Shown one piece after another: positions 19,432 through 43,899 of a stretch of DNA of 64,000 bases (position 1 is its first letter; every line of letters starts with the position of its first letter). Source of the stretch: Sphingopyxis sp. (GTDB taxonomy: Bacteria; Pseudomonadota; Alphaproteobacteria; Sphingomonadales; Sphingomonadaceae); NCBI GenBank assembly GCA_016793775.1, contig JAEULK010000043.1, forward strand, positions 124,001 to 188,000, read 5' to 3'. The position numbers and the translations under genes are program-made. The notes beneath the pieces were generated by a model, which saw only the letters and a program-made list of their open reading frames with translations, searched no databases and was not told the origin of the DNA.

Positions 19432-19492
19432 TTACCCGCGGGTAAGCGCTCGATCGGTGGCAAAATCCACCCATCAAAGTGCCCTTTTACCC
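19432..19492 (+). promoter_or_regulatory. TTACCC half-sites upstream of the second TonB receptor
   Basis: TTACCCGCGGGTAA (19432-19445) is a perfect 14-bp palindrome. Further down, CCACCC (19467-19472) and TTACCC (19487-19492) are 20 bases apart, start to start, and end 105 bases before the receptor start. The layout fits the paired TTACCC sites at five other places. The rest of the 300-base gap 19297-19596 holds the palindrome at 19313-19358 and the receptor leader; I see nothing else in it. Confidence 0.6.
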
Positions 19493-19596
19493 GATTCCGG
19501 CCAACCACAGATTTTCAGGCGATCTACACTCGCATGACAGTTCAACGACGACCGAGGGTTTCAGGGTCCAGGCCAACAGAAAGAGAAGGGGGCGTT

Positions 19597-21681
19597 ATGA
19601 TGCGCGTTTGTCTACATCGTGCGATGGTGATGCGGGGTTCGATCGGGGTTTCGCTGTTGGCGCTTGCCTGCGCACAGCCGGCTTACGCCCAGTCCGAAAC
19701 CACCGATGAATCGGATATCGTGGTCACCGGGACGAGTGCCACATCGGCGACCAAGACCGACACCCCCATCTTGCGCATTCCGCAGGCGATCGAAGTCATC
19801 ACGGTCGAAGAGTTGCAGGACCGCGGCGCGCTGAATATCCGCGAAGCACTGAAATATACGGCAGGCGTCTATAACGGCGGGGATGACTCGCGCGGCGATT
19901 TCAACATCATTCGCGGCTTCGAATCGATCCTCTACGTCGACGGGCTGAAGCGCAACTATGGCTTCGTCTATATGCCGCGTCCCGAGGTTGCGACGCTGGA
20001 GCGGCTCGAGGTTCTCGTCGGTCCAGCATCGGTGCTGTACGGCGCGGGCAGCTCGGGCGGCATCACCAACCTGCAGAGCAAGCGCCCGCAGTTCGACTTC
20101 GGCGGCAGCGCGAGCGTCAGCTATGGCAGTTTCGAGCGTAAGGAAGCGACCGTCGATGTCACCGGCCCGCTCAGTGATACGCTGGCTGCGCGCTTCGTCG
20201 GCGTCGTGCGCGATTCGAACTCGCGCCTCGACTTCACGCGCAACGATCGCATCGTCGCACAGGGTGCGCTGACCTGGCGACCGAGCGACCGCACCGACAT
20301 CACCGCGATCGGCATTTATCAGCAAGACAATAACCCGCCGAACTATAATGTCGTGCCGCTGGTCGGCTCGCTCTATGCGCTGGCTGGCGATCGTATCCCG
20401 GACTCGCGCTTCCTGGGCGAGCCGGGGATCAACCGTGGCGATAAGGAATATACGGCGCTGTCGCTGTTCGCGACCCACGAATTTTCGGATGCGTTCAGCA
20501 TCCGCAGTTCGTCCCGCTACACCTGGGCCAACACCAAGCAGGCCGAATATTATCTCGCGACCTATCTGAGTCCGGGCGGGCCGCTCGATCCGTTCCTGCC
20601 CGGCACGACGATGATTCCGCGGAACCTGTTCGCGATCAACATCAAATATCGCACGTTCAATACCGACAACGGCGTCGCGTTCAAATTCGATACCGGTCCG
20701 GCTTCGCATCAGCTGATCGCGGGCATCGACTATTCCTATTTCAAGCAGGTGTCGGGCCAGGCCTTTGTCGAGAATGCCGGCGCGATCGACGTTTATAACC
20801 CGGTCTATGGCAATGCGCCCGGTCCGGTCTTCACCTTCTTCAACACGCAAATATTGAAGCAGACCGGCTTCTATGTGCAGGACCAGATCGATTTCGGCCA
20901 GGTGGCGTCGCTGGTCGTCGGCATCCGGCGCGATCGGTACAGCAAGGTGGATGTGGGTGCGAATCCCGAAAGGACCAACAAGACGACCAAGCGCGCCGGA
21001 CTGACGATCAACGCCACGTCGACGCTGGCGCCCTATTTCAGCTATTCGGAATCCTTCCTGCCGATCTCGGGCCTCAACCAGTTCGGCAGCACCTATCAGC
21101 CGCTGTTCGGCAAGCAGGTGGAAGTCGGTGTGAAGTGGCAGCCGGCCCGTTCGACGATGCTGCGCGTGTCGCTCTATGATCTGAAGGAAGACAATGCGCT
21201 GCGTACCGATCCGAACAATCCGCTGAATTCGATCCAGACCGGCTCGGTCAAGGCGAAGGGCTTCGAGTTCCAAGCCAACCATAATATCGCCGACGATTTT
21301 TCGATCACCGCAGCCTTCGCATACGGCAAGGTCCGGCTTTCGGGACAAAATCGCCAGCGCGACGACACCCCGCAATATCTGGCGAGCATCTTCGGCACCA
21401 AGACGGTCCAGCTTACCAATGATGTGAGCATGCGCCTTGGCGGCGGCGTGCGATATCAAGGCAAGCAGATGTCGGACCCGTTCGGCGGTGCCTTCGTCGT
21501 CGAAACGCCCAGCTACACGCTGGTCGATGCGATGCTGGCCTTCGACTACAACGACTGGACGTTGCAGTTCAACGCGATCAACCTGTTCGACGACGTCTAT
21601 TATCCGAGCTGCTCGGCCTTCGGATCGTGCGCCAACGGCGAGCCGCGGACGGTGCAGGGGACGCTGACCTACAAGTTCTGA
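19597..21681 (+). CDS. TonB-dependent siderophore receptor
   Basis: The product has 694 residues. A signal peptide ends at PAYAQ. Then come the TonB-box-like DIVVTGTS, a plug domain (FNIIRGFESILYVDGLKR, GPASVLYGAGSSGGITNL) and a barrel ending in TYKF. The sequence resembles ferrichrome/siderophore receptors. I chose the ATG at 19597, preceded by AGAAGGGGG; an in-frame ATG 21 codons upstream lacks a ribosome site. Its promoter region has the TTACCC pair linked to the MalT-like regulator. A strong terminator follows and then the flavoprotein gene. Uptake of a ferric or other bulky complex is the family expectation. Confidence 0.87.
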   Translation: MMRVCLHRAMVMRGSIGVSLLALACAQPAYAQSETTDESDIVVTGTSATSATKTDTPILRIPQAIEVITVEELQDRGALNIREALKYTAGVYNGGDDSRGDFNIIRGFESILYVDGLKRNYGFVYMPRPEVATLERLEVLVGPASVLYGAGSSGGITNLQSKRPQFDFGGSASVSYGSFERKEATVDVTGPLSDTLAARFVGVVRDSNSRLDFTRNDRIVAQGALTWRPSDRTDITAIGIYQQDNNPPNYNVVPLVGSLYALAGDRIPDSRFLGEPGINRGDKEYTALSLFATHEFSDAFSIRSSSRYTWANTKQAEYYLATYLSPGGPLDPFLPGTTMIPRNLFAINIKYRTFNTDNGVAFKFDTGPASHQLIAGIDYSYFKQVSGQAFVENAGAIDVYNPVYGNAPGPVFTFFNTQILKQTGFYVQDQIDFGQVASLVVGIRRDRYSKVDVGANPERTNKTTKRAGLTINATSTLAPYFSYSESFLPISGLNQFGSTYQPLFGKQVEVGVKWQPARSTMLRVSLYDLKEDNALRTDPNNPLNSIQTGSVKAKGFEFQANHNIADDFSITAAFAYGKVRLSGQNRQRDDTPQYLASIFGTKTVQLTNDVSMRLGGGVRYQGKQMSDPFGGAFVVETPSYTLVDAMLAFDYNDWTLQFNAINLFDDVYYPSCSAFGSCANGEPRTVQGTLTYKF

Positions 21682-21710
21682 ACCGAGCAATAGCCAAGGT
21701 CTTCATGGGG

Positions 21711-21742
21711 CGGCGGCCGGGGCATCCCCGGCCGCCGTTTTT
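21711..21742 (+). terminator. Rho-independent terminator after the TonB receptor
   Basis: A 12-bp GC stem (CGGCGGCCGGGG at 21711-21722 with CCCCGGCCGCCG at 21726-21737), loop CAT, then five T. It ends 24 bases before the next ATG, so the flavoprotein gene either has a promoter in this short gap or depends on read-through. Confidence 0.9.
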
Positions 21743-21766
21743 CTTGGGGCATAGGAGGGGCGCACG

Positions 21767-23701: not shown

Positions 23702-23732
23702 GGCCGATCGACATTCAGCCCTGACGGCCTGC

Positions 23733-23809
23733 AAATGGCGGCTTTCCGCGCTTCCGGTGCTCACATACTTTAAGTACGCTGCGCTCCGGGTCACGGAAAA
23801 CCACCATTT
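23733..23809. repeat. Large imperfect palindrome between convergent genes
   Basis: The left arm beginning AAATGGCGGCTTTCCG and the reverse complement of the right arm (AAATGGTGGTTTTCCG) match at most positions over about 38 bases around the central ACTTTAAGT. It would fold into a long hairpin on either strand and sits in the 147-base gap between two convergent genes. It may act as a bidirectional terminator or be a genome-wide repeated extragenic palindrome; only one copy lies in this window. Confidence 0.65.
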
Positions 23810-23848
23810 TCGGCACGTCATCTTCTGAATGCCGATTGGCCCTAGGGC

Positions 23849-24520
23849 TCAGGTTTCGGCCCACATCCGCCACAGGTCGCTGGTGTTGCGCGTCAGCGTG
23901 TCGAACGCGGCGCTCTTGCCGCCCTCCGCAAACATCGTCGCGCGCAGATTTTCCAGCTCGAACAGCACGCGCCGCTTGTCGGCCTCGCGCACGAGGCTCT
24001 GGATCCAGCCCACCGCGACGTCGCGCCGGCCCGACGTCACCTTGGTCACCTGGTGCACCGAATTGGCGGGATAGAGGATCGCGGCGCCGGCGGGCAGTTT
24101 GAACGCGCGCGTGCCGGCGGGCTCGTCGATCTCGAGCTCGCCACCCTCATAGCTTTCGGGATCGGACAGGAAGAGCGTGTAGGCCAGATCGATGCGTGTC
24201 TGTGGGTGGTCGCCCATCAGGGCGTTGTCGACATGCGGGCCATAGCCCATGCCCTCGGTATAGCGGCTGAACAGTAGGGGCCGCATGGTGCGGGGCATTG
24301 CGGCCATCGCAAAAAAGCGATTGGCTGCGAGCGCCTCGCTGACCATCGCCTGCATGGCGGCATAGTCCCGGGAATTGCCGGCGACCTGTTTGTTTTCCTT
24401 CACCCCCGCCGCGGCCCAGCCGGCGGTTTCGCGGCCGTCGATGAAGTGCTGCTTGTCCATCATGCCGACCAGCTTCTTGAGCTGGTCGGCAGTCAGGATA
24501 TCGGGGATGCAAATCAGCAA
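23849..24520 (-). CDS. PKHD-type Fe(II)/2-oxoglutarate hydroxylase (PiuC/YbiX-like)
   Basis: The product has 223 residues. The double-stranded beta-helix core shows the iron ligands His and Asp in YGPHVDNALMG, a distal His in NSVHQVTKV, and the 2-oxoglutarate arginine in SGRRDVAVGW. Family members sit beside TonB siderophore receptors and respond to iron, although their substrate is unproven. Translation probably starts at TTG (24520) after AAAGG; the N-terminus LLICIPDIL then lines up with the family's usual MLxxIPxxL. It begins 10 bases after the stop of the unknown secreted protein and is cotranscribed with it. Confidence 0.87.
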   Translation of the reverse strand: MLICIPDILTADQLKKLVGMMDKQHFIDGRETAGWAAAGVKENKQVAGNSRDYAAMQAMVSEALAANRFFAMAAMPRTMRPLLFSRYTEGMGYGPHVDNALMGDHPQTRIDLAYTLFLSDPESYEGGELEIDEPAGTRAFKLPAGAAILYPANSVHQVTKVTSGRRDVAVGWIQSLVREADKRRVLFELENLRATMFAEGGKSAAFDTLTRNTSDLWRMWAET

Positions 24521-24530
24521 AAGCCGGCCT

Positions 24531-25157
24531 TTACATATCGGGCGCGGCGCCCTTCTTCAGGGCGTGCGCCTTACCCGAAACGGTCCCGTCGGGCTTCACC
24601 ATCGCGACGCTATCCATCACGAAGAACATCGTATAGCAACCCGCGATCTGTGACTTTCCGGCCCAGGTTATGTCAACGCATAGCTTATTGTCTTCGGTCT
24701 TCCAGGTGCCCGTCACAGGCTCGTTGACCTGTGCGCTGCATACGCCTTCATAGAGGAGCAGGCCGTCGCCCGGCGTTTCCTTGGTGGGGCATTTCTTCAC
24801 ATCGACGGCGTCGTACCGGATGTTGTAGCCGCCGACCTTGCCGTCCGCGCCATATTGGTGTGCATAATGGTAGGGGATGGCGAGCGTGTTGCCGGTCAGC
24901 GCCTTGCCGATCTGTTCGGTGGTCAGCGCCGGGAAAGACAATGTCGGCCAGACGCGGTGCGACCCGATGCCGTTCTCACCGCCTTCGCCCGCGAGCATCA
25001 GCGACAGCGCCTTGTCGAAACCGGTGGGATAGACGTGCTCGCTCGGCTGGGGCGCCTGCGGCGCATTGGGGTCGGCGGCGGTGGCGGGCACCGCCATCGT
25101 GGTGGCGGCGGCGACGCCCGCGGCCACCGTCCACATCTTCATGGTAAATTTCTGCAT
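24531..25157 (-). CDS. Secreted protein of unknown family with four cysteines
   Basis: The product has 208 residues. A signal peptide ends near PATAAD (residue 28). The mature protein has four cysteines (KKCPTK, EGVCSAQ, NKLCVDI, AGCYTMF), which could form two disulfides, and a beta-rich second half containing WKTEDNKLCVDITW. That half recalls small lipocalin- or DUF995-like secreted proteins, but I cannot name the family. GGGAGGT lies 8 bases before the ATG. The promoter region carries two GGGTAA/TTACCC boxes (25259, 25279). It is cotranscribed with the PKHD hydroxylase. Confidence 0.75.
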   Translation of the reverse strand: MQKFTMKMWTVAAGVAAATTMAVPATAADPNAPQAPQPSEHVYPTGFDKALSLMLAGEGGENGIGSHRVWPTLSFPALTTEQIGKALTGNTLAIPYHYAHQYGADGKVGGYNIRYDAVDVKKCPTKETPGDGLLLYEGVCSAQVNEPVTGTWKTEDNKLCVDITWAGKSQIAGCYTMFFVMDSVAMVKPDGTVSGKAHALKKGAAPDM

Positions 25158-25258: not shown

Positions 25259-25284
25259 GGGTAAGCGGCGGGTGCGAAGGGTAA
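25259..25284 (-). promoter_or_regulatory. Paired TTACCC boxes upstream of the unknown secreted protein
   Basis: GGGTAA at 25259-25264 and 25279-25284 on the plus strand, that is TTACCC twice on the minus strand, 20 bases apart. They lie 102 bases upstream of the start at 25157, the same layout as the other TTACCC pairs. Confidence 0.62.
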
Positions 25285-25285
25285 G

Positions 25286-26380: not shown

Positions 26381-26435
26381 TCCTGTTCGTTCCTTGAAAT
26401 ACCAGAGACGCGCCGGGCGCGGCGAATGCAAGGCG

Positions 26436-26792
26436 TCAAATGGCCGGGCGCTGCCGCGGCTTGCGAAAGCGATAGCCGAAACCGCAAGTGTCCGGGTCGA
26501 GCGGTGGCGTGGTCGCGGGCATCGCGGGGGGCACCGTCGCAACCGCCGTGCCGCGGGTGCCGAGGCTGGTCAGCCAGCCGCAGGCAATCAGCTTTTCATA
26601 GGCCGACACCACCGTCTTGCGGTTGAACCCCGCGGTCTCTGCAAGATAGCGGCTGCTCGGCAGCCAGGCACCGGGGGCGAGGCGTCCATTCTCGATATCG
26701 TGGATGATCGCATTGACGATCTGGCAATGTATCGGCTCGCGCAATGAGCGATCGACGCGGTCGCCGAGGCCGATGGGCCAGTTGTACAGCAT
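26436..26792 (-). CDS. HTH-only MocR remnant or stand-alone GntR regulator
   Basis: The product has only 118 residues. It contains the GntR winged helix (EPIHCQIVNAIIHDIENGRL, WLPSSRYLAETAGFNRKTVV, IACGWLTSLGTRGTAV), closely following the MocR at 8250-9716, then a linker ending FGYRFRKPRQRPAI. The stop falls where the aminotransferase domain would begin, and only 55 bases follow before the PepSY gene, so no domain remnant is left. AAGGGGGAACC precedes the ATG at 26792, so it appears to be expressed. It cannot bind PLP as a MocR does and may act as a constitutive or competing DNA binder. Confidence 0.75.
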   Translation of the reverse strand: MLYNWPIGLGDRVDRSLREPIHCQIVNAIIHDIENGRLAPGAWLPSSRYLAETAGFNRKTVVSAYEKLIACGWLTSLGTRGTAVATVPPAMPATTPPLDPDTCGFGYRFRKPRQRPAI

Positions 26793-26913: not shown

Positions 26914-26939
26914 TTACCCGTCTTCGCCCGACGTTACCC
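26914..26939 (+). promoter_or_regulatory. Paired TTACCC boxes upstream of the YtcJ-type amidohydrolase
   Basis: TTACCC at 26914-26919 and 26934-26939, 20 bases apart and 107 bases before the ATG at 27046. A further GGGTAA lies at 26865-26870. The region 26793-27045 is the divergent gap shared with the HTH-only MocR gene. Confidence 0.62.
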
Positions 26940-27045
26940 CGCGGCACGGCTTCGAACCCTGCGGCGCTTGCTGTTGAATGACGGCCTGATGTCCATCCAT
27001 CGCCGGACCTGCGACAAGGTCCGCACCAGCCCGCCGGGAGCCACA

Positions 27046-28770
27046 ATGTCGAAAAGCATCGCCTCTGCCACCCTCGCCGCCATGCTGTGCCTGTCGGGAG
27101 CCGCGCAGGCGAAAGGCAAGGTGGAGGCCGACCTGATTCTGACCAACGCGCGCGTCTATACGGTCGAGGACACGCAGCCCTGGGCCGAGGCGGTCGCGAT
27201 TCTGGATGGCAAGATCGTCGCGGTGGGGACGGCTGCGAGCGTCGGCAAGCTGCGCGGTTCGGCGACGCGCACCGTCGATGTCGGCGGCAAGCTGGTGCTG
27301 CCGGCCTTTGGCGATGCGCACGCCCATCCGCTGTTCGGGGCGCTCAGCCGCACCCGTTGTCCGCTGCATGACGGCAAGACGATCGCCGACTATCAGGCGT
27401 TGATCGCCAAATGCGTCGCCGAGACGCCGGGCGACGGTGCGATCTATGGCATCGGTTGGAGCGATGCGCTGTTTCCGCCGAGCGGCATCCCGCGCAAGGA
27501 CTCGCTCGATAAGGTATCGACGACGCGCCCGCTGATCTTTGAATCGCTCGGCGGGCATAGCTATTGGCTGAACTCCAAGGCGCTCGAGGTCGGCAAGATC
27601 ACGCGCGACACCAAGGACCCGGCGAATGGCACGATCGACCGCGACCCCGCGACGGGTGAGCCGGTCGGCAGCCTGCAGGAAGCGGCGATGGACCTGGTCA
27701 AGCCTATGATCCCGGCGCCGACGGCCACCGAGGTGCAGAATTCGATCCTCTATGTCGCCGACCATTTCAACAGCCTGGGCATCGTCAACTGGAACGACGC
27801 CGGGGTCGAATATGACGCCGACGGCGGCAGCGCGATGGTCGATGCGTACAAGGCGGTGCTCGATGTCGGCAAGCTGACCAGCCATGTCGCGGTGTCGCTG
27901 AAGTGGAAGAATGAGGAGGGCCTGGAGCAGCTCCCCGGGCTGCTCAAAGCCGCCGAGCGCGCCAATGCGCTGGGCATTTCGACGCATATGGTGAAATTCT
28001 ATGTCGACGGGGTGATCCCGCAAAAGACCGCCTTCATGCTCGCGCCCTATGAGAATGGCGGCGACGAACGCGGCACGCCGCAGATCGCGCCCGAGCTGCT
28101 GAAAAAGGCGGTCACCGCGGTCGATGCGAAGGGCATGCACGCCTTCCTCCACGCGATCGGCGACGGCGGGGTGCATATCTCGCTCGACGCGGTCGAAGCG
28201 GCGCGCAAGGCGAATGGCGCGAAGCCGACGCATCACATGATAACCCATATGAATGTCGTCGACCCCAGCGACCAGCCGCGCTTCGGCAAGCTCGCGACCT
28301 TCGCGCAATTCCAGCCGAGCTGGGCTTCGTGGTACGATTATATGGATCTGACCGTCGCCGCGATCGGGCCGAAGCGCGCGACCTATGTCTATCCGGCGGG
28401 CAGCATCGTGCGCGCTGGCGGCAAGCTCGCTTATGGCGCCGACTGGCCGGTGGGCGGTGCCAACCCGCTCGAGGGCATCGAGGTCGCGATGACACGCCGC
28501 ACCGCGGGCGATCCGAACGCCAAGCCGCTGCTGCCCGAGGAGGGCGTCAGCCTGAAGGACGCGATCGCCAGCCACACGATCAACGTCGCCTATGTCAACG
28601 GCTTCGCCGATGTCACGGGGTCGATCAAGGCCGGCAAGAGCGCCGACCTCGTGGTGCTCGACAAGGATATCTTCAAGCTGCCGGTCTATGAGATTTCCAA
28701 GGCCAAGGTGCTGGTCACGCTGTTCGAGGGCAAGCCGGTGTTCGGCGACTGGGACGCCGCGACGAAATAG
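27046..28770 (+). CDS. Exported YtcJ-type amidohydrolase (second copy)
   Basis: The product has 574 residues with a signal peptide ending AAQA (about residue 22). Metal ligands are HAH at residues 92-94 (FGDAHAHPLFG), histidines in FLHAIGDGGVHIS and HHMITHMN, and the late Asp in YGADWPVGGANPLEG. The family hydrolyses amide bonds with one or two divalent metals. GGGAG lies six bases before the ATG. It is the counterpart of the enzyme at 5997-7664 but sits under TTACCC boxes instead of the AAACATCCA motif. The frame is open far upstream, but without family similarity or a ribosome site. Confidence 0.85.
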   Translation: MSKSIASATLAAMLCLSGAAQAKGKVEADLILTNARVYTVEDTQPWAEAVAILDGKIVAVGTAASVGKLRGSATRTVDVGGKLVLPAFGDAHAHPLFGALSRTRCPLHDGKTIADYQALIAKCVAETPGDGAIYGIGWSDALFPPSGIPRKDSLDKVSTTRPLIFESLGGHSYWLNSKALEVGKITRDTKDPANGTIDRDPATGEPVGSLQEAAMDLVKPMIPAPTATEVQNSILYVADHFNSLGIVNWNDAGVEYDADGGSAMVDAYKAVLDVGKLTSHVAVSLKWKNEEGLEQLPGLLKAAERANALGISTHMVKFYVDGVIPQKTAFMLAPYENGGDERGTPQIAPELLKKAVTAVDAKGMHAFLHAIGDGGVHISLDAVEAARKANGAKPTHHMITHMNVVDPSDQPRFGKLATFAQFQPSWASWYDYMDLTVAAIGPKRATYVYPAGSIVRAGGKLAYGADWPVGGANPLEGIEVAMTRRTAGDPNAKPLLPEEGVSLKDAIASHTINVAYVNGFADVTGSIKAGKSADLVVLDKDIFKLPVYEISKAKVLVTLFEGKPVFGDWDAATK

Positions 28771-28771
28771 G

Positions 28772-29641
28772 TCAGGGCCAGCGCATGACCGCGCGCATCG
28801 TTGCGGTGATCGAGCGATGCGGCACGGTGACGTGGCTCTCGCCGTCGAGGAGCAGAAATTCGCTGCGCAGCCCGGTGGCTGACAGCGGCGCGAGGCGAGC
28901 GGCGAGCGCTGCGCTGTCCTGCGCGATCGAACCATCGCTTTCAAACTCGCCCGCGATCAGCAGCAGCCGGGTGCGGCGCGCGAGCTTGCCGTCCTGTTCG
29001 GCGCGCGTGCGCCAAGCAGCCTCTTCGGACAGAATCGCCTGATCGTCCCACCAGATCGATGGGCTCGCCGCGACGATCGTGTCGAAGGCGCCGGGATAAG
29101 AATAGAAGAGGTGGAGCGCGAACAGCCCGCCGAGCGAATGGCCATAGAGCGCCTGCCGCTGTGGATGCACCTTGTAGCGCTTGGCGACGGCGGGCTTGAG
29201 TTCATCGAGCAGGAAGGCGCGAAATGCATCGCGGCCGCCCGACGGATATTTGGCATAGAGCCGCTTCAGCGCCGGGGTGACGAGCGGCCCGGTGAAATCC
29301 TCCATCCGGCGCGGGTCATAGACCTGGTCGCCGGGGTGGCCGACGCCGACGACGATCATCTTGTCGAGGTCGCGCCCGCCGAAGCCCTGGATGCGCCGCG
29401 CCTCGGCGAAGCCCGCGAACATGGCATTGCCGTCGAGGACATAGAGGATCGGATAGCCGCCCTCGGGCGCCTCGCCCGCAGGGCGCGAGACGAAGATGCG
29501 ATAGGTCCGGCCCCTCGCCGAGGTCATGTCCCATGTCTCGGTTTCGGGCATGGCGTAGGGCGCGGGCGCCGGCGATTCGGCGGCGAGGGTCGGCAGCGGT
29601 GCGGCGAGGAGCAGCGCGAGGCTCGCGGCGAGAAACCTCAT
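28772..29641 (-). CDS. Exported esterase, IroE/enterochelin-esterase-like
   Basis: The product has 289 residues with a signal peptide (MRFLAASLALLLAAPLPTLAAE). The alpha/beta-hydrolase core has ILYVLDGNAMF, the nucleophile motif GHSLGG, AASPSIWWDD and a C-terminal ESHVTVPH supplying the His. This matches IroE-like periplasmic esterases that trim trilactone siderophores, though other esters are possible. The ATG at 29641 overlaps the permease stop (ATGA), making it the fourth gene of the hydantoinase operon. Its stop lies 2 bases from that of the convergent amidohydrolase. Confidence 0.82.
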   Translation of the reverse strand: MRFLAASLALLLAAPLPTLAAESPAPAPYAMPETETWDMTSARGRTYRIFVSRPAGEAPEGGYPILYVLDGNAMFAGFAEARRIQGFGGRDLDKMIVVGVGHPGDQVYDPRRMEDFTGPLVTPALKRLYAKYPSGGRDAFRAFLLDELKPAVAKRYKVHPQRQALYGHSLGGLFALHLFYSYPGAFDTIVAASPSIWWDDQAILSEEAAWRTRAEQDGKLARRTRLLLIAGEFESDGSIAQDSAALAARLAPLSATGLRSEFLLLDGESHVTVPHRSITATMRAVMRWP

Positions 29642-30906
29642 GCCACGACCGCTTGGCGGCGCAGGCGCAGCACCGCGAGATAGGCCAATGCCGCGAGGAT
29701 GGTCGCGTCGAGCGCGGGCACGGTGGTCAGCGTCCAGCCGAGCTGCATCGCGGGCAGGGTGATGACAAGGCTGCCGAGCCACACCCCGATCGCTTCCCAG
29801 CGGACCGGCAGCGTTGCCACCTCGTCGCGGCCGCGGAAGGTCAGGAAGCCGTCAATCACGTAAATCGCGGCGATCGGCGGGATGATCAGCCCGAGTGCGA
29901 TCAGGAAAGGGATGAAGCTGTTGATGATGCCGAGCAGCGCGAACAGGCAGCCGATCGCGCCGCCGATGACGACGATCCAGCCTTGCTTGAGGCGCGGAAA
30001 GGTCGCCGCGAGCGAGAGGCCGGCCGAATAGAGGTTCAGCGCGTTGATCGTCCACACCGACAGGATGAGCATCGCAAGCGCGGGCAGGCCGAAGCCCAAT
30101 GCGACCACCAGCTTCATGATGTCGGTTTGTCCGGTAGTCAGTGCGATCAGCGCCGACACGAGCATGATCACCGGCGCGCAAAAGGGGAAGGAGAGCAGCA
30201 TCGCCGAGACTGCGCCGCGTTCGGTACGGATGAAGCGCGACAGGTCGGGCATCGCGGCGACGGTCAGCAGATTGCCGCCGACGAGCGAGGAGAGCGCAAT
30301 GCCGAAGCTCATCGGCAGCGGCGGCGCGGCGACCGGGCCGAGGTCGGGGGCGGGATTGTCGCCGAGCGCGACGACGCACACCGCGATCAGGATCACGCCG
30401 ACGAACGGCACCGCGACCATTGCCAGCCGGTCGAGGGTGCGAAAGCCCCAGATCGTCGACAGCGTGATGATGACGCTGCCGATGACGACGAACAGCTGGA
30501 AATTCCCGGCAATGCCATAGCCGCCCCGCGCCGCGGCGACCATCGCGTCGCCGAAGAAGGAGACATTGACCCCGAACCAGCAGAAATGGACGATCGCGAT
30601 GACGATATTGACCAGCGCCGCGCCCCACAGCCCGAAGGACCGCTGCACGAGCATATAGGTGGTGAGCCGCGTGCGGACGCTGACGATGGCGGTCAGGCAG
30701 GCGCCCGCACACAGGATCAGCCCGGCGCCGAGCGCCGCGAGCACCGCCTGGTTCATGCCGAGCGCAAGACCCGCCTGCGCATTATTGAGGAAGCCGGGCA
30801 GCGAGAAGGTGAAGCTCGCGATGATCAGCGCGACGCGCCAGCCGGGAATGGTCAGGTCTTCGGGAAGACGCCCGCTCGCATAGTTTCCCCCCGCCTCTGC
30901 GCTCAT
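29638..30906 (-). CDS. NCS1-type nucleobase/hydantoin permease
   Basis: The product has 422 residues with about 12 membrane helices (ALIIASFTFSLPGFLNNAQAG, FCWFGVNVSFFGDAM, LFALLGIINSFIPFLIALG and others). The pattern matches cytosine permease (CodB)-like carriers of the NCS1 family, which move purines, pyrimidines, allantoin or hydantoins with a cation. The ATG at 30906 overlaps the DUF917 stop. Lying beside hydantoinase-A and DUF917 genes, it probably imports their cyclic ureide or hydantoin-like substrate (inference). Confidence 0.84.
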   Translation of the reverse strand: MSAEAGGNYASGRLPEDLTIPGWRVALIIASFTFSLPGFLNNAQAGLALGMNQAVLAALGAGLILCAGACLTAIVSVRTRLTTYMLVQRSFGLWGAALVNIVIAIVHFCWFGVNVSFFGDAMVAAARGGYGIAGNFQLFVVIGSVIITLSTIWGFRTLDRLAMVAVPFVGVILIAVCVVALGDNPAPDLGPVAAPPLPMSFGIALSSLVGGNLLTVAAMPDLSRFIRTERGAVSAMLLSFPFCAPVIMLVSALIALTTGQTDIMKLVVALGFGLPALAMLILSVWTINALNLYSAGLSLAATFPRLKQGWIVVIGGAIGCLFALLGIINSFIPFLIALGLIIPPIAAIYVIDGFLTFRGRDEVATLPVRWEAIGVWLGSLVITLPAMQLGWTLTTVPALDATILAALAYLAVLRLRRQAVVA

Positions 30907-32009: not shown

Positions 32010-33597
32010 GACGCGCCTCCGCCAGCGGCACGGCGGTCACGCCGTCGGCGTCGGCCAGGCTGCCGACCGCCTTCATGCGCAGCTGCGCCGAACGGCCGGG
32101 CAGATAGGAAAGAAACACTTCGTCCATGTCGACAATCTCTGCTGTTTCGCGGGTGGCTCCGGCCGCAACGACGCGGGCGAGGAGCGTTTCGCGCATCGCC
32201 TCGAGCGCGGCGGCGCGGGGTTCCAGATCATAATCGACGATCCGGTCGGCCTGTGCCCCGATCTGGGCGATGGCCGCGCCGACGGCATTGGCGACCGCGG
32301 CGTGATCGGGCCGCACCACCTGTGCTGCGCCCTTCACATCGTCGTCGATCAGGAAATGGCCGCCGCCGACCGCGATGATCGTGACGTCGCCCGACTGGGT
32401 TTTCATGCGGTCGATGCCGTCGGCCAGCATGTCGGCCATGCGGGTGAGGATCGCGGCGCTCAGCGCCGGCGCCAGCGCGGGGATCAGATCGGGGTCGCCA
32501 AAGCGCGCCTTGCCCGCCGCGACCGCGATATCGCTGGTGGTGAGCGTCGATCCGCCGAACAGAAAGGCGTCCTGCGTGAGGCGGAAACCGACCGAATCTG
32601 GGCCGATGGTCACGCCGTTCGTGGCTTCGTCGAGACGGATGCGCGTGCCGCCGCCAAGGCCGATCGCGAGGATGTCGGGCATACGGAAATTGGTCCGCAC
32701 GCCGCCGATATCGACCGCGATCGAGGATTCGCGCGGATATCCGTTCGCGAGCACGCCGATGTCGCAGGTCGTGCCGCCGACATCCATGACGATGCCATTG
32801 TCGACCCCGGTCAGGAAGGCGGCGCCGCGCATACTGTTCGTCGGACCCGACCCCATGGTCAGCACCGGATAGCGTGCCGCCTCCGATGCCGAGATCAGCG
32901 TCCCGTCATTCTGCGAGATATAGAGCGGCGCGGCTATGCCGAGGGCCCCCAGCGCGCGTTCGAGCGAGGCCATGACATGCTGCGCCAGCGTCGCGAGCGC
33001 GGCGTTCAGGATCGTGCCATTCTCGCGCTCTATCAGTCCGAGGCGACCGATGTCGTGCGACAGGCTGACATGTGCATCGGGATGAACGTCGGCGATGATC
33101 GCCGCCGCCCATTCCTCCATCGCGGCGTTGATCGGCGCGAAGGCGCAGCTGACCGCGATACTGGCGATGCCCTGTTCGCGGCAGTCCCTGGCGGCGGCGC
33201 GCACCGCGACTTCGTCGAGGGGGGAGATTTCGCGGCCGTCGACCTCATAGCCGCCGGGCAGCAGGAAGGTCGCGCCCTCGATCCGTTGGACCAGTGCTTC
33301 GGGCCAGCCGGTCATCGGCGGCAGCGCTTCGCCCGAAGGGCTGGCGAGCCGGATGACGCCGACGCGGTCGAGCCGGTCGCGCTCGACCAGCGCGTTGGTG
33401 AAATGGGTGGTGCCGATCATCACGGCGCTGATATCGGCGGCGGCGGCCCCGGCGTCGGACAGGATCGCGCCGATCGCGGCGGTCACCCCCGAACTGACGT
33501 CGGCGCTGGTCGGCTGCTTGGTCGATGCGACCACGCGGCCCCCGGCAATCAGGACCGCGTCGGTGTTGGTTCCCCCGACGTCGACACCAATACGCAC
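31999..33597 (-). CDS. Hydantoinase/oxoprolinase subunit A family protein (HyuA-like)
   Basis: The product has 532 residues. It begins with the ASKHA phosphate-binding motif IGVDVGGTNTDAVL, has TTHFTNALVER, TMGSGPTNSMRGAAFL, VMDVGGTTCDIGVL and GGGTRIRLD. This is the ATP-dependent A component of hydantoinases and 5-oxoprolinases. No B subunit is present, so it probably works with DUF917 instead, a combination common in bacteria. Start is GTG (33597) after GGAG; an ATG nearby is out of frame. Two TTACCC boxes on its strand lie 92 bases upstream, and it leads a four-gene overlapping operon. Confidence 0.86.
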   Translation of the reverse strand: MRIGVDVGGTNTDAVLIAGGRVVASTKQPTSADVSSGVTAAIGAILSDAGAAAADISAVMIGTTHFTNALVERDRLDRVGVIRLASPSGEALPPMTGWPEALVQRIEGATFLLPGGYEVDGREISPLDEVAVRAAARDCREQGIASIAVSCAFAPINAAMEEWAAAIIADVHPDAHVSLSHDIGRLGLIERENGTILNAALATLAQHVMASLERALGALGIAAPLYISQNDGTLISASEAARYPVLTMGSGPTNSMRGAAFLTGVDNGIVMDVGGTTCDIGVLANGYPRESSIAVDIGGVRTNFRMPDILAIGLGGGTRIRLDEATNGVTIGPDSVGFRLTQDAFLFGGSTLTTSDIAVAAGKARFGDPDLIPALAPALSAAILTRMADMLADGIDRMKTQSGDVTIIAVGGGHFLIDDDVKGAAQVVRPDHAAVANAVGAAIAQIGAQADRIVDYDLEPRAAALEAMRETLLARVVAAGATRETAEIVDMDEVFLSYLPGRSAQLRMKAVGSLADADGVTAVPLAEARHGH

Positions 33598-33688
33598 CCC
33601 GACATTCTCCCACAGCCTCTTGCCCGCCGATTACACTGGGGGGGTGGGGCGCACGCAACGCGTAAAACGGGTGCCGGGGACCGCGAAC

Positions 33689-33716
33689 GGGTAATGGCTC
33701 TGCCGTCGATGGGTAA
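33689..33716 (-). promoter_or_regulatory. Paired TTACCC boxes between hydantoinase operon and LuxR gene
   Basis: GGGTAA at 33689-33694 and 33711-33716 (TTACCC on the minus strand), 22 bases apart, ending 92 bases before the hydantoinase start. The same gap serves the divergent MalT-like regulator gene, whose own expression could be affected. Confidence 0.6.
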
Positions 33717-33789
33717 GGCTTTGCAGGCGGTTGTCAGGCCTGTCATCGATCCGTAACCTCCGTTCCCGGAAGCCGAGAGAGGTTGTGCC

Positions 33790-36474
33790 ATGCAGGACCT
33801 GATTGCCGCCAAGTTCGACCCGCCGCTGTGGATGGGCGACCAGATCCGCCGCGAGGTTCTTCTCGGTCGGCTGCTCGGCGTTCTCAGCCACCGCTTGACG
33901 CTGGTGCATGCCCCCGCCGGCTATGGCAAGACGAGCCTGTTGGCGCAGTGGCGCGACGCGCTCCACCCCGAAGCCGCCCGCGTCGCCTGGCTTACGCTCG
34001 AACGCGACGACCGCGATCTCAAGCGTTTCGTGAACTATCTTCTCATGGCGTTACGGCGCGATCATGGGGAAGGCGAGGGCAAGGCCGCTTCGAGCGACCT
34101 GCCGCCGCGCGCCGCGCTGTCGGCTATGATCAACGAGATCGGCGAAAGCAAGGTGCCGGTGGTGCTGATCCTCGACGACCTGCACCATGCGTTCAGCGAG
34201 GCGGTCGGCCAGTTCCTCGAATCGCTGGTGCGGCTCGCGCCGCCCAACTGCCATTTCCTCTTCGCCTCACGCGACTATCCCTGGGTCGGGCAGTCGGTCC
34301 TGGCGGCGGAGGAGCAATTGCTCGAAATCGGTCCCGCGGACCTGCGCTTTTCGGCGCAGGAGACCGAATGCCTGCTGACGCGCACCGACCGGCCGCTCGA
34401 AACGCTCGACATCGATACGCTGCTCGACCGGACCGAGGGCTGGCCGATCGCGGTCCAGCTCGCCTCGCTGTCGATCAAGCGCGGGATGGAGGCCGAGCGG
34501 GTCATCGACGAATATTGCGGCACCAGCAGCGACCTTGCGCGCTACCTGTCCGAACAGGTGCTGATGACATTGCCGCAGGAAACGCGCGATATCGTCGCGC
34601 GCACCGCGCTCGTCGACCGGCTGACCGGCGAGATGGTCGACCTGTTGTGCGACCGGCAGGACGGTTGGATGGTCCTCGAACGGCTGGAGCAGCAGGGGGT
34701 GTTCCTGACCCCGGTCAGCTGGGAACGGCGCGAATACCGCTATCACCAGCTGTTCGCCGAATATCTGCGCGACCGGTTCGAACGATCGGACCGGGTGCAA
34801 TATGCGGCGCTCCAGTGCAGGATCGCGCGCTGGCTCGCTGAACGCGGCCAGACCGCCGAGGCGCTCGACCATGCGATATTGTCGGGCGACGACATGCTGG
34901 TCGCGTCGATCCTCGAGGATGCGGGCGGCTGGCGCCTGATCCCGCAGGGGTTGCAGGGTGTCGTCGAGCGCGGCCTTGCCAAATTGCCGATCGCGCTGAT
35001 CCGCGGCCGGCCGCGCCTCGCGCTGGCGCAAGTGTATCTCCAGATCAAGCTCGGCGAACTCGGATCGGCGCGCGCCGAATATGACCTGTTCCTCGCGCAG
35101 GTCGAGGGCGCCGACCTGTCGGTCGATCTTAAGACCGAGATGCGTGTCGTCGGCGACACGCTGACCGATTATGAGAACCAGCCGGTGACCTTCGACGATT
35201 TGCTGGCGCGCGAAGCCTTGCTGCGCAAGCTGCCCGCGAACGACCATCTGGTACTCGCGAATATCAGCGAGACCCTGGGCGCCAAATATCTGGAGGGCGG
35301 CTGGCTCGAACGCGCGCTCCAGCCGACGCTCGCGGCGCGCGACCATTATCTTGCGATCGGCTCGCTTTACAGCGACCTCTTCACCCGCTTCCTGGAGTCG
35401 CGCATCAAGCGGGCGCAGGGGCGGTCGAAGGATGCCGAGGCGATCCTGCACGCTGCCTGCGCCAATATCACCGACAGCTATGGCGACCGGTCCGACCTTG
35501 CGGCCAATTGCGCGGCGTTCCGCGCCGAATTGCTGTTCGAACAGGATATGGTGGCGGAGGCGCGCGAACTGCTGTCCTGGGCACTACCGCACATGGAACA
35601 GTCCGACGGCTGGGTCGACGTCTATGCCGCCGCCTATTTCACCGAAGCGCGCGCGCTGGCGGGCGAGGGAGCGTTCGAGGAAGCGTGCGACGTCATCGCG
35701 CGTGCGCGCCGCGTCGCGGCGCGGCGGCGGCTGCGCCAGCTCGAAATGCTCGCCGACATCTGCAGCATCGAATTGCAGATTTCGCAGGGGGCGCCGACGC
35801 ATGCGGTACTGGCCGCGGCGGCGGTCGTCGGACTCGATCCGATGGCCGACATGATGCACGAGGAATCGCCGACCTATCGCCCGGTCGCGGTCGCGGCCAG
35901 CCTGTGCCGGACGCGGCTGCGGCTGCTGGTGGGCGAGGTCGATGTCGCGCTCGACGAGCTGCGGGAACTGCGCGATTGGGCCGAGCGGCACGGCGCCGGG
36001 CGCCTGCTGATCGATGTCAACATCCTCGTCGCCGCCGGGCTGCGGCAGCGCGGCGAGGTCGATCAGGCGCGCGCCTGTTTCGACGAGGCGGTGGGCATCG
36101 CGATGTTCCAGAATATCGTCCGGCCGTTCGTCGAGGCGCGGCAGTTCGTCCAGGCCGGGCTCGACGATGCGCTTCAGGCCGACGCGCAGGTCGATCGTTT
36201 CCGCGCGCAATTCATGAAATCGCTGGCGCGTGCGCTTGCGGTCTATCGCAACAATGTGACCGTGCTCGGCGTGTTCAGCGAGGCCGAGGCCGAGGTATTG
36301 CTCTATCTGAGCCAGGGCCATTCCAACAAGGAAATCGCCCGGCTGATCGGCATGTCGCCCGACACGGTGAAGTATCGGCTGAAGTCGGTGTTCCGCAAGA
36401 TCGGCGTCAGCAAACGCCGCGACGCGGTGCGCATTTCCGCCGAAAGAGGCCTGATTCCCGCCAGCACGCCCTAG
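33790..36474 (+). CDS. MalT-like LuxR-family regulator (LAL type)
   Basis: The product has 894 residues. It has an N-terminal STAND ATPase with Walker A HAPAGYGKTSLLAQW (about residues 40-54) and a Walker-B-like VVLILDDLHHAF. A long helical, TPR-like sensor region follows, and a C-terminal LuxR helix-turn-helix (SEAEAEVLLYLSQGHSNKEIARLIG...TVKYRLKSVFRKIGV, about residues 825-885). MalT-type proteins oligomerise with ATP and an inducer and bind short asymmetric boxes arranged as repeats. Scattered TTACCC pairs around this gene are good candidate targets. GAGAGAGG precedes the ATG. No other LAL gene is in the window. Confidence 0.9.
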   Translation: MQDLIAAKFDPPLWMGDQIRREVLLGRLLGVLSHRLTLVHAPAGYGKTSLLAQWRDALHPEAARVAWLTLERDDRDLKRFVNYLLMALRRDHGEGEGKAASSDLPPRAALSAMINEIGESKVPVVLILDDLHHAFSEAVGQFLESLVRLAPPNCHFLFASRDYPWVGQSVLAAEEQLLEIGPADLRFSAQETECLLTRTDRPLETLDIDTLLDRTEGWPIAVQLASLSIKRGMEAERVIDEYCGTSSDLARYLSEQVLMTLPQETRDIVARTALVDRLTGEMVDLLCDRQDGWMVLERLEQQGVFLTPVSWERREYRYHQLFAEYLRDRFERSDRVQYAALQCRIARWLAERGQTAEALDHAILSGDDMLVASILEDAGGWRLIPQGLQGVVERGLAKLPIALIRGRPRLALAQVYLQIKLGELGSARAEYDLFLAQVEGADLSVDLKTEMRVVGDTLTDYENQPVTFDDLLAREALLRKLPANDHLVLANISETLGAKYLEGGWLERALQPTLAARDHYLAIGSLYSDLFTRFLESRIKRAQGRSKDAEAILHAACANITDSYGDRSDLAANCAAFRAELLFEQDMVAEARELLSWALPHMEQSDGWVDVYAAAYFTEARALAGEGAFEEACDVIARARRVAARRRLRQLEMLADICSIELQISQGAPTHAVLAAAAVVGLDPMADMMHEESPTYRPVAVAASLCRTRLRLLVGEVDVALDELRELRDWAERHGAGRLLIDVNILVAAGLRQRGEVDQARACFDEAVGIAMFQNIVRPFVEARQFVQAGLDDALQADAQVDRFRAQFMKSLARALAVYRNNVTVLGVFSEAEAEVLLYLSQGHSNKEIARLIGMSPDTVKYRLKSVFRKIGVSKRRDAVRISAERGLIPASTP

Positions 36475-38081: not shown

Positions 38082-38091
38082 GGAGAGAGAT

Positions 38092-38856: not shown

Positions 38857-38949
38857 CGATGATCGGCGCCCGGGAAATGCTGACGGCTTTTCCGGGCGCT
38901 TCACTTCGGCCATATGGGATGTCACAAAGCTCAGCAGGCGAACCAGACC

Positions 38950-39675: not shown

Positions 39676-39742
39676 CCTATCATCAAGAACGACAATGGAC
39701 CGGAGCGGCCGCAGGGCACGCGACCGGCGGGAGAGTCATATC

Positions 39743-41056: not shown

Positions 41057-41078
41057 CGGGTGACCATTGGGGGGCGGA

Positions 41079-43277
41079 ATGACGGACGGAATCGGGCGCG
41101 GGGCATGGCGCGGCATCATCGTCGGGCTGATCCTGCTTGCGCTATGGACGCTGCGACCGTTTGGCGTCGATGCGCCGTCGTCGCTCGATACGCCCTTCGA
41201 CACCGATCGTGCGATCGCGCGGCTCGCGACGATCCTCGGCGACGAGCGCCCGCACCCGACCGACAGCGACGCCAATGATCTGGTCGAGGCGCGGCTGCTC
41301 GCCGAAATCCGCAAGGCGGGTTTCAGCCCCCAAGTCGACGAACGCTTTCACTGCAATGATTTTCGCGAGGGCGCCGCGATCTGCGCGCGGCCGCGCAACA
41401 TCGCCTTCTGGGTCACCCCGCCGGGGGACGATGCGCTGCTGATCCTGTCGCATCATGACTCGGTGGCCGCCGGGCCGGGCGCGGCCGACGACGGCCTTGG
41501 CATGGCGGTCGCACTCGAAATCGCGTATCAGTTCAAGGGAAAGAAGCTGGCGCGGCCGGTGCTCGTCGTCATCACCGACGCCGAGGAAGCGGGGCTGGTC
41601 GGCGCCGCCGCCTTTGCCGCGCATGATCCGCTGGCGAATCGCGTCGGCGCGGTGATCAACATGGAGGCGCGCGGCACGACCGGCGGCGTGAACATGTTCC
41701 AGACGAGCACCCCGAACGCGCGCGATTTTGCGGCGATCGGCCGCCCGCTGCCGTCGGCCAATTCACTCGCGACCGATTTTTACGAGTTGCTGCCCAATGA
41801 CACCGATCTGACGATGCTGCTGCCGCTCAAGATCGATGCGGGCAATTATTCGATCATCGGCAGCGGCAAACGCTATCATACGCCGCTCGACAATCTGGCG
41901 CATCTCGACCGAAATTCGGTGCGCCACATGGGCGCGACGACGCTGTCGGCGGTCGAGCGTTTTGCGGGCGAGACGGGGAAGGGTGCCGAGGGCCAGCGCG
42001 TCTTCACCGATGTCGGGCGACAATTCATGCTCGAACTGCCGCAGCTTCTCGCGGCGGTCGTTATCGGGATGGGGTTGGTCGCGGCGGCCTTCCTCTACTG
42101 GCGCGGCGGGGCCGCGCGCCGCATCCGCAGCGCCTTCATCCCGCTGCTGGCGATCGTCGGCGGGACCGGCCTTGCGATCGGCGCCGCGATGCTCGTCGGG
42201 GTCCTACGGCCGGAGGCGGATTTCGGAACGGCTTATCCGGTTGTGTTCCGCCTGCTCTATGCCGCCGCGGGGCTGGCCGGCGCGACCGCGATCCTTGCGC
42301 TCGCGCGGGAGGACAATCCGGTGCGCGGGACGGTGGCGGCGTGGGGTTGGCTCGCCATCCTGATCCTCGCCGCCTTTGCCATTGTCCCTGGCCTTACGAT
42401 CCTTGCGGCCTGGTCGATGCCCTTCGTCGTCGCGGCGGCGATCGCGGCGATGATCCCGGCGGCGCAGCGCGCTGTGCCTTTCCTGCTGACGGGCGCCGCG
42501 ATCGTTCATGTCGTCATCGTCCTTCCGCTTGGCGGGGGAATCGAGGAGGGGCTGTTTGTCGAACAGGCGGCGCCCGCGACCTTCCTGCTGGTATTCATGT
42601 TCCTCTTTTTCCTGCCCGCCGCAGGGCGAGGCACGCGCTGGACTCCGGCGGTCTTCGGCATCGTCGCGCTGGGCGCCTTCATCGCGGCGCTCATCGTGCC
42701 CGCCTATAGTCCGCATGCACCGCGCCACCTGACCGTCGTGCACGAGGACGACAATGGAAAGGCTGCTTTCCTGATCGCCGACAACGGTCCGGTGCCGGCC
42801 GCTATGGCGGCCGAGGCCAAATTCGCCGCCACCCCCGACGACAAGGGCGTCTGGCGCGCGCCGGCGCCCACGCTCGTGGACGACGGCAGCGTGGAAATCC
42901 TGTCGGACACGGTTGCGGGCAATCGCCGCACGATAAGCCTGGCCCTCATGGCGCCGACCGCCAACACGCAGGACCTGCAGATCAAGGACGGCAAGGATAT
43001 CCGGAACGTCATCATCAACGGCACGCGGCCGGCGATCAAGGGCGAGCCCGTCTATATCGGTTGTACCGGCCGCACTTGCCGCCGCCTGGAGGTTCAGTTC
43101 GACCTGTCCGCGAAAGGCAAACAGCCCAGGATCGACTGGCGTCGCACCCGCTTTGGCGCAGGAGAGGCGGGGGCAAAACTGGCCGCGAAGCGCCCGGCGA
43201 CCGCGCAGCCGGTGCATGGCGGCGACCGGCAGGTGTGGATCCGCAAGCTGCGCCTGCCGGCAGCGCCGACCGGCTAA
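41079..43277 (+). CDS. Membrane-anchored M28-family metallopeptidase
   Basis: The product has 732 residues. An N-terminal membrane helix (GIIVGLILLALWTLRPFG) anchors a zinc peptidase domain with ligands in LSHHDSVAAGPGAADDG, TDAEEAGLVGAAAF and RYHTPLDN. About seven further membrane helices (residues roughly 320-550) and a soluble C-terminal domain with a CTGRTCRRLEV pair of cysteines follow. The family cleaves N-terminal amino acids from peptides. GGGGGGCGGA directly precedes the ATG at 41079. It ends convergently with the cupin gene, overlapping by 4 bases. It could supply amino acids from peptides processed outside the cell. Confidence 0.86.
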   Translation: MTDGIGRGAWRGIIVGLILLALWTLRPFGVDAPSSLDTPFDTDRAIARLATILGDERPHPTDSDANDLVEARLLAEIRKAGFSPQVDERFHCNDFREGAAICARPRNIAFWVTPPGDDALLILSHHDSVAAGPGAADDGLGMAVALEIAYQFKGKKLARPVLVVITDAEEAGLVGAAAFAAHDPLANRVGAVINMEARGTTGGVNMFQTSTPNARDFAAIGRPLPSANSLATDFYELLPNDTDLTMLLPLKIDAGNYSIIGSGKRYHTPLDNLAHLDRNSVRHMGATTLSAVERFAGETGKGAEGQRVFTDVGRQFMLELPQLLAAVVIGMGLVAAAFLYWRGGAARRIRSAFIPLLAIVGGTGLAIGAAMLVGVLRPEADFGTAYPVVFRLLYAAAGLAGATAILALAREDNPVRGTVAAWGWLAILILAAFAIVPGLTILAAWSMPFVVAAAIAAMIPAAQRAVPFLLTGAAIVHVVIVLPLGGGIEEGLFVEQAAPATFLLVFMFLFFLPAAGRGTRWTPAVFGIVALGAFIAALIVPAYSPHAPRHLTVVHEDDNGKAAFLIADNGPVPAAMAAEAKFAATPDDKGVWRAPAPTLVDDGSVEILSDTVAGNRRTISLALMAPTANTQDLQIKDGKDIRNVIINGTRPAIKGEPVYIGCTGRTCRRLEVQFDLSAKGKQPRIDWRRTRFGAGEAGAKLAAKRPATAQPVHGGDRQVWIRKLRLPAAPTG

Positions 43278-43741
43278 ACCGAGCGGTCGATATAAGTGAG
43301 GAATATCCGAAGGTTGCCGGGGCCGTCCTGGTTGGCGATGCCCCGCCAACTGTCGAGCGGCGCAAAGACATGGTCGCCCGCGGTGACGGCGAATTTCTCG
43401 CCGTCGACCGTCATGATGCCGGAGCCTTCGACGATATAATAATATTCCTCATAGGGTCCGAGCGCCGGGTCGCTGAGATTGTGGAGATGCACGCCTTCGC
43501 TCGCGCCGGGCGGGATATCGTAGATCATGAAATTGGCGGGCGCCGCGGCGCCGCCGAAATCGAACAGGCGGACGCCGAGTTCGCCCAGACCTTCGTGTAC
43601 GGCCTTGAACTTGTTGAATCCCTCGGTCGCGCGCTCAAGCTTGAAGCGCGAAGGGCGTCCGACGGGCGCAGCCGCAGCGGGGGCGACCATCGATCCGATC
43701 GCGGCGGCGGCGAGCAGGGTGCGGCGGCTGATATCGTCCAT
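43274..43741 (-). CDS. Exported cupin-domain protein
   Basis: The product has 155 residues. A twin-arginine-like signal (DDISRRTLLAAAAIGSMVAPAAAA) is followed by one cupin barrel with SEGVHLHNLSDPALGPYEEYYYIVEGSG (two His and Glu as likely metal ligands) and GDHVFAPLDSWRGIAN. Function is unknown; single cupins may be isomerases, dioxygenases or sensors. AGAGGT lies before the ATG at 43741. Its upstream region carries GGGCAA and GGGTAA 19 bases apart on the plus strand, a candidate LAL site shared back to back with the next operon. Confidence 0.78.
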   Translation of the reverse strand: MDDISRRTLLAAAAIGSMVAPAAAAPVGRPSRFKLERATEGFNKFKAVHEGLGELGVRLFDFGGAAAPANFMIYDIPPGASEGVHLHNLSDPALGPYEEYYYIVEGSGIMTVDGEKFAVTAGDHVFAPLDSWRGIANQDGPGNLRIFLTYIDRSV

Positions 43742-43825
43742 CGGAAGACCTCTTCTGGCGCCATGGGCGCATCGGTTGCCCGCGAAGCGTAATCGCGGGC
43801 GCCCGGTCAGGGAAGCGCGGCGATA

Positions 43826-43850
43826 GGGCAAACAGGCGTCAGAAGGGTAA
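43826..43850 (-). promoter_or_regulatory. TTACCC-type pair upstream of the cupin gene
   Basis: GGGCAA (43826-43831) and GGGTAA (43845-43850), 19 bases apart, read on the minus strand as TTACCC and TTGCCC. They end 85 bases before the cupin start. The first box is imperfect. Confidence 0.5.
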
Positions 43851-43874
43851 TCGGGCCTGGCTATTTGGTCGCAT

Positions 43875-43899
43875 TTACCCATCTGTCGGACCGTTACCC
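43875..43899 (+). promoter_or_regulatory. TTACCC pair upstream of the second small-protein/amidohydrolase operon
   Basis: TTACCC at 43875-43880 and 43894-43899, 19 bases apart, ending 69 bases before the ATG at 43968. Confidence 0.62.

Follow-up and report, generated by a model that had tools for sequence, protein, structure and literature searches.

What reads the short paired boxes that precede several transcription units in a 64,000-nucleotide stretch of Sphingopyxis sp. (assembly GCA_016793775.1, contig JAEULK010000043.1, positions 124,001 to 188,000; hereafter "the window", whose first letter is position 1), and which genes do these boxes hold together? An initial annotation had proposed that TTACCC, exact or with one or two mismatches, occurs as a direct pair before six units (a TonB receptor, a secreted protein with a PKHD hydroxylase, a YtcJ-like amidohydrolase, a hydantoinase operon, a cupin protein, and a small protein with an amidohydrolase), and had linked these pairs with a MalT-like regulator of the LAL family encoded at 33790..36474 (+ strand). 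As judged from sequence comparisons, this LAL very probably is a MalT-type activator with a box of its own, driving a regulon made up of those six units.

The pairs themselves hold up: four of the six are exact, the cupin one (with TTGCCC, one mismatch) is the sole window pair with at most one mismatch beyond these four, and the TonB-receptor one (CCACCC-20-TTACCC) has two mismatches and is weak if taken alone. There are four exact matches to TTACCC-N13-16-TTACCC in the window, and none in 100 dinucleotide shuffles of it. Nor is the pair spread over the genome, a matter that the initial annotation had left to a whole-genome scan: four of the five exact pairs in the entire 3.93 Mb lie in the window (binomial p 3.5e-7; the reversed-pattern control gives two vs. 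five), and the fifth, read by eye, sits within a 21-base tandem repeat and is not promoter-like. A stricter pattern, YTACCCNTY-N10-13-YTACCC, has four sites genome-wide, every one of them in the window. The single hexamer TTACCC is also enriched (20 observed vs. 6.4 expected), and the window pairs with at most one mismatch all fall inside 19432..43899 (5/5), as do 12 of the 14 with at most two mismatches spaced 19–22 bases start to start. What had to be corrected is the distance to the start codon, given initially as 69–107 bases; since the likely starts of the TonB receptor and YtcJ genes are 19597 and 27046, the second box begins about 74–112 bases before the start codon.

Are such pairs also kept elsewhere? 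A scan of 84,980 species genomes for the LAL gave 31 loci, 29 of which (L024–L052, from 27 genomes) hold LAL orthologues of 49–94% identity, the nearest being that of Sphingopyxis sp. KK2 (94%); L053 and L054 hold distant LALs and were used as controls, and L046 and L052, both of one metagenome-assembled genome, are contig-end pieces. The 29 orthologue loci (602 kb) contain 54 exact pairs at 18–23 bases start to start, present in 27 of them (the two contig-end pieces being those without), and direct repeats at any other spacing of up to 80 bases contribute just five more. Among the 60 letter permutations, TTACCC included, the runner-up is CTTACC with 10 (overlapping CTTACCC) and the third has 3, as against 54. 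Sixteen distant-LAL loci have no exact pair, although this is a smaller sample (120 kb vs. 602 kb). Orthologues in different genera and orders keep the pair upstream, as the initial annotation would have it, the hexamers remain exact even where the spacers differ from genus to genus, and 49 distinct exact pairs give cTTACCCgTcTt as the logo of the box.

The targets are kept as well. With a mechanical assignment (the longest open reading frame starting within 300 bases downstream of an exact pair), 51 of the 54 pairs fall before genes related to the six units of the window, namely, hydantoinase (22), TonB receptor (15), YtcJ (5), the secreted 208-amino-acid protein (4), cupin (4) and the small protein (1); the remaining three are two overlapping pairs before a propeller-amidohydrolase gene of L034 and one before an oxidoreductase gene of L028. 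The receptors of most loci are 35–40% identical to that of the window, and are relatives rather than clear orthologues on that account. The full assignment table has 74 rows, as it adds the window and 12 short loci and gives some sites twice; its pairs in L005, L055 and L056 look like background. In a Henriciella locus (L135, 2921, + strand), an exact pair stands before what by eye is an alpha/beta hydrolase-like gene divergent from the receptor, and this gene is possibly a further regulon member.

Co-occurrence with the LAL gene could be followed in 199 genomes of the family, four of which (G000, G085, G150 and G011) have a LAL orthologue of more than 50% identity. These carriers hold 5, 6, 3 and 3 exact pairs (17 in total; reversed-pattern control 2, 0, 1 and 1, i.e., 4), whereas the 195 others hold 64 pairs in 47 genomes (0.33 per genome). 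Two of the carriers, G085 and G150, are also the source of L028 and L029, and so add no independent evidence to that of the 29 loci. Three genomes of the same genus without the LAL have 0, 0 and 1 exact pairs and no site of the stricter pattern, which gives five sites in Sphingopyxis sp. KK2, where the LAL contig holds every one of them. Twenty of the 27 named carrier genomes were searched, and each has pairs (57 in total; reversed control 25), 48 of which are no more than about 18 kb distant from the LAL, according to coordinates read by hand. One of the nine pairs lying away from it adjoins a second LAL copy (contig C259 of G202), and three of the other eight precede regulon genes: YtcJ and an esterase in Sphingomonas Root710, and the secreted protein in G207. 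Since the LAL of Root710 has about 0.69 Mb of sequence between it and the closer contig end, the two Root710 pairs, which are on another contig, represent distant targets. The pair of G207, although on another contig (C83), is not counted as distant: the genes around it carry on the order of the contig with the LAL, which stops about 7 kb from that gene, so that the cluster was probably split there between two contigs.

On two contigs of G085 other than that of the LAL (L137 on C15 and L138 on C33) there are copies of the secreted-protein gene, each with its own exact pair and one of them followed by a PKHD hydroxylase gene.

With these counts at hand, the notion that the pairs are due to chance, or belong to a mobile or coding repeat, is left with practically no probability. 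It can draw upon the fifth genome pair, which is of the repeat kind, and upon genomes without the LAL still holding their third of a pair each, but it was already contradicted by the permutation counts and the family-genome co-occurrence, and it would have to account for the shuffles without a single pair, for hexamers being held while the spacers between them diverge from genus to genus, and for a spacing confined to 19–23 bases apart from five pairs.

A real and conserved cis-element need not, of course, be read by the regulator encoded next to it. The LAL (894 amino acids) is a MalT-like STAND protein, with an NTPase (AAA_22 and AAA_16 above cut-off; Walker A APAGYGKT at residues 41–48, by eye in the translation), a MalT-like TPR sensor region (PF17874, TPR_MalT, 50.6 bits, cut-off 45) and a C-terminal GerE/LuxR helix-turn-helix (PF00196, 47 bits, cut-off 23.5). 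A phmmer match to the MalT structure 8bob spans residues 4–416 (E 2.2e-47), and the NCBIfam MalT equivalog scores 306.5 bits, under its cut-off of 537, so that the protein falls outside this model of MalT proper. Its predicted recognition helix, GMSPDTVKYRLK[SA], is found in 29 of the 31 orthologue rows, the window included (49–94% identity; two genomes are counted twice, and L032 and L052 are without the region), with one change in L009 and four in L044, and is absent from all 13 distant LALs compared, which have, e.g., ENTVKFHLK instead.

Hydantoinase genes served as controls for the dependence of the pair on this particular LAL: an exact pair is present before four of the four that stand beside a LAL orthologue and before none of 17 homologues found elsewhere (46–53% identity), including eight in the carrier genomes G011, G085 and G150. 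A one-mismatch pair was seen only before the homologue of L089, which adjoins a distant LAL. Such distant LALs are adjacent to seven of the 16 homologues with upstream sequence (L080–L083, L086, L089 and L092), and CTACCC lies upstream of five of these seven vs. none of the nine without a LAL, a comparison that was made post hoc and is not relied upon. A de novo search for direct repeats upstream of the hydantoinase homologues found no common word, and L082 has, less than 250 bases upstream of its hydantoinase gene, an 8-base direct repeat, AACCTCCT, 22 bases apart, i.e., the same two-turn layout with another word. The CTACCC words of the LAL-adjacent homologues hint at a broader family of LAL-hydantoinase units whose boxes have drifted.

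It is improbable, in our estimate, that some other regulator coded elsewhere reads the boxes and the LAL is merely their neighbor. The orientation of the boxes towards the hydantoinase operon rather than the LAL gene would suit such a regulator, and the regulator search covered the other loci systematically only as far as their genes are related to those of the window; yet no regulator except the LAL was recognized among those window genes that have counterparts in the Sphingomonadales, Caulobacter, Niveispirillum and Luteimonas loci (a Pfam scan of 30 window proteins recognized no other), the pairs track its presence both in the family genomes and before the hydantoinase genes, and homologues with a different adjacent LAL carry different, though related, words. 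The pairing of regulator and box, put forward initially as an inference, is supported by the pair tracking the LAL gene, by its conservation before orthologues and by its absence from the unpaired hydantoinase homologues.

How the LAL might act through the boxes is best seen between its gene and the divergent hydantoinase operon. Box 1 and box 2 of the hydantoinase promoter form an exact pair (TTACCC-22-TTACCC, 33689..33716, − strand), a third and degenerate box, GCACCC, follows 20 bases past box 2 (33669..33674, −; NNACCC being the conserved part), and next comes a putative promoter, TTGCGT-N17-TGTAAT (33630..33658, −), with a conserved TTGC and a −10-like hexamer match. Across 28 such intergenic regions (27 loci and the window; L027 has no hydantoinase gene beside its LAL and L046 no upstream sequence, and both are excluded), box 2 is exact in 28, box 1 in 23, the third box, NNACCC, lies 20–21 bases on in 26, and TTGC, the likely −35, is present in 27. 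A putative LAL promoter, TTGTCA-N17-TAACCT, was read by eye beside the same boxes (33731..33759, +), which makes autoregulation of the LAL gene possible. The operon encodes a HyuA-like hydantoinase/oxoprolinase of 532 amino acids (31999..33597, −; Pfam), an S-Me-THD-like (DUF917) protein of 368 amino acids (30903..32009, −; Pfam) and an NCS1-type permease of the cytosine/purine/allantoin family (29638..30906, −; PF02133 on the open reading frame 29638–31284, with the start at 30906 chosen). An ergothioneine/thiohydantoin reading of the S-Me-THD-like protein was set aside, as both NCBIfam thiohydantoin desulfurase models score far below cut-off.

The −10 elements were picked visually and by means of a simple matrix, with distances counted from the box nearest the promoter. 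The best −10-like hexamer, which reads TTGAAT or TTCAAT in many promoters, lies 39–40 bases from that box in 12 of 14 receptor, three of six YtcJ and three of four cupin promoters, and a lesser match occurs at the same place in the rest of these three groups. For the hydantoinase, the best match lies 59–61 bases from box 2 in 13 promoters out of 22, i.e., 38–41 from the third box. Were these hexamers indeed the −10 elements, the near box would begin at about −51. Such a box anatomy (asymmetric, spaced by two turns, two to three per promoter and at a fairly constant distance from the putative −10) is what a MalT-type activator would need. MalT, according to passages of PMC4381067 and PMC10427625, multimerizes when driven by inducer and ATP, binds its boxes cooperatively and recruits RNA polymerase. 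We infer that an inducer bound by the TPR sensor and ATP bound by the NTPase would cause the LAL to oligomerize, and that its C-terminal helix-turn-helix domains would bind arrays of the asymmetric box, whose direct repeats, 19–22 bases or two helical turns apart, would all present themselves on one face of the DNA. As the near box often lies some 38–40 bases before the −10, just upstream of the −35, LAL bound there could recruit the polymerase, and would do so at the hydantoinase/S-Me-THD/permease operon (with three boxes), the TonB receptor, YtcJ, the secreted protein and PKHD hydroxylase, the cupin, and the small protein and amidohydrolase.

The same arrangement might be read the other way, with the LAL repressing through the boxes, or acting in both directions at the divergent LAL/hydantoinase promoter, where the boxes do lie between two promoters; a repressor LAL is also described in Streptomyces (PMC9628970). 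We consider this a little less probable still than a foreign regulator, with the boxes being upstream of the putative −35/−10 elements at a fairly constant distance, which is the usual place for an activator.

Activation by the LAL through these boxes does have several observations weighing against it. The −10 calls rest on the eye and a simple matrix, the best hexamer is at 34 rather than near 40 bases in three of seven secreted-protein promoters, the two PepSY promoters examined both depart from the geometry, and in the window the receptor's own pair is degenerate. No site of the stricter pattern is present in G011 (a 57% orthologue, with three looser pairs) and just one in G150; among the distant-LAL loci, L011, L023 and L054 have a one-mismatch pair, and five of the eight pairs inspected away from the LAL in the carrier genomes have no regulon relative downstream and look like background. 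The pair counts of the orthologue loci, moreover, are not independent, because the loci are related and three of them are of one species.

As for the remaining units, the weak pair of the TonB receptor (19467..19492, +) is followed, 38 bases past box 2, by a putative −10, TACACT (19525..19530, +; by eye), and the receptor of L127, 61% identical to that of the window, has CTACCC-21-CTACCC with the same TACACT 38 bases on (also by eye). The gene product (19597..21681, +) is a FoxA/FhuA-like TonB-dependent siderophore receptor (TIGR01783, 273.9 bits, cut-off 223.5, on the open reading frame 19534–21681). A perfect inverted repeat, TTACCCGCGGGTAA, lies upstream of the receptor gene at 19432–19445 and is possibly an extra regulator site. 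The exact pair at 25259..25284 (−) precedes the secreted 208-amino-acid protein (24531..25157, −), which has no Pfam or NCBIfam match and whose AlphaFold model, built with six close sequences, has a mean pLDDT of 41.7, and the PKHD-type Fe(II) dioxygenase (23849..24520, −; NF003974, 255.5 bits, cut-off 143); relatives of this unit have exact pairs in L024–L027, L066, L067 and L128. The exact pair at 26914..26939 (+), exact also before relatives in five further loci, is followed, 40 bases past box 2, by a putative −10, TTGAAT (26974..26979, +), and the YtcJ-like amidohydrolase (27046..28770, +; PF07969), with a signal peptide seen by eye. The one-mismatch pair at 43826..43850 (−) belongs to the cupin protein (43274..43741, −; Cupin_2 on the longer open reading frame 43274–43903) and is exact in L024, L025, L026 and L035, and the exact pair at 43875..43899 (+), exact in L024 as well, precedes the small protein of 154 amino acids without a family match (43968..44432, +) and an amidohydrolase that is Xaa-Pro dipeptidase-like, though under that model's cut-off (44498..45853, +; start approximate). 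The PepSY gene (25286–26542), which had been expected to be a target, has no pair with up to two mismatches upstream in the window. The window also encodes a 1065-amino-acid fusion of a TolB-like propeller and an amidohydrolase (13964–17161) with no box pair upstream, and the L034 gene that is 28% identical to it does have box pairs upstream.

What, then, could such a regulon be for? The receptors of the window, L036, L135, L127 and L030 pass the TIGR01783 cut-off, with FhuA or FoxA as their best equivalogs, albeit below the equivalog cut-offs, and the receptors are accompanied by the PKHD dioxygenase, the PepSY protein, the NCS1 permease, amidohydrolases, an esterase weakly similar to enterochelin esterase and a hydantoinase partly similar to caprolactamase. 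The cluster is carried by Niveispirillum irakense (L043), with an amidase adjoining the presumed permease; we take this species to be the former Azospirillum irakense, though the strain noted for desferrioxamine degradation need not be the sequenced one. Azospirillum is stated to cleave desferrioxamine B by a specific hydrolase in a passage of PMC10866069 that cites Winkelmann 1999 on A. irakense. A tentative and rather doubtful proposal would be that the regulon serves the import and consumption of foreign hydroxamate siderophores of the ferrioxamine/ferrichrome type, switched by a STAND sensor of the siderophore or its amide product. If so, the desferrioxamine hydrolase of N. irakense would be a box-controlled amidohydrolase or amidase, and the regulon would show where to look for the genes behind desferrioxamine breakdown by bacteria, a known activity for which the available parts of the literature found name no gene. 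Literature on the box, the LAL or the operon was likewise absent among the matches listed, as far as their available parts go, with subscription journals and preprints lying outside the search. From sequence alone, the LAL can be given a precise candidate operator, together with a promoter geometry and targets conserved across several orders, and both its inducer and the function of the hydantoinase/S-Me-THD operon become directly testable by reporter screens.

Of the systems already described, MalT of Escherichia coli and Klebsiella (the mal regulon) has the same domain order as the LAL, for which ATP-dependent multimerization would be expected, too, and its target promoters bear direct repeats of a short asymmetric box (Vidal-Ingigliardi 1991, as cited in passages of PMC6099782 and PMC7567727), a trait that it shares with the LAL regulon of the window; the MalT box is GGGGA(T/G)GAGG, however, whereas the one described here is based on TTACCC, the window LAL is below the MalT equivalog cut-off, and the MalT targets are maltodextrin genes instead of receptor, hydantoinase and amidohydrolase genes. 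TpdR of Rhodococcus jostii TMP1, an LAL activator of tetramethylpyrazine breakdown, is, in the relevant passages of PMC6099782, similar in being a catabolic-operon LAL with two direct repeats, the near one of which, at −51 to −37, is close to the place put forward here, yet its 15-base repeats are 28 bases apart start to start, which is another layout, and TpdR binding is a hypothesis of its authors. The Actinoplanes MalT regulon, as portrayed in passages of PMC7567727, also has its LAL gene within an extensive co-regulated region whose promoters share one motif, present in related regions of other genomes as well, but this motif is a palindrome, TCATCC-5-GGATGA, overlapping the −35, and not a direct repeat. 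What the window most likely contains is a MalT-type regulon of a known kind, but with a new box and new targets.

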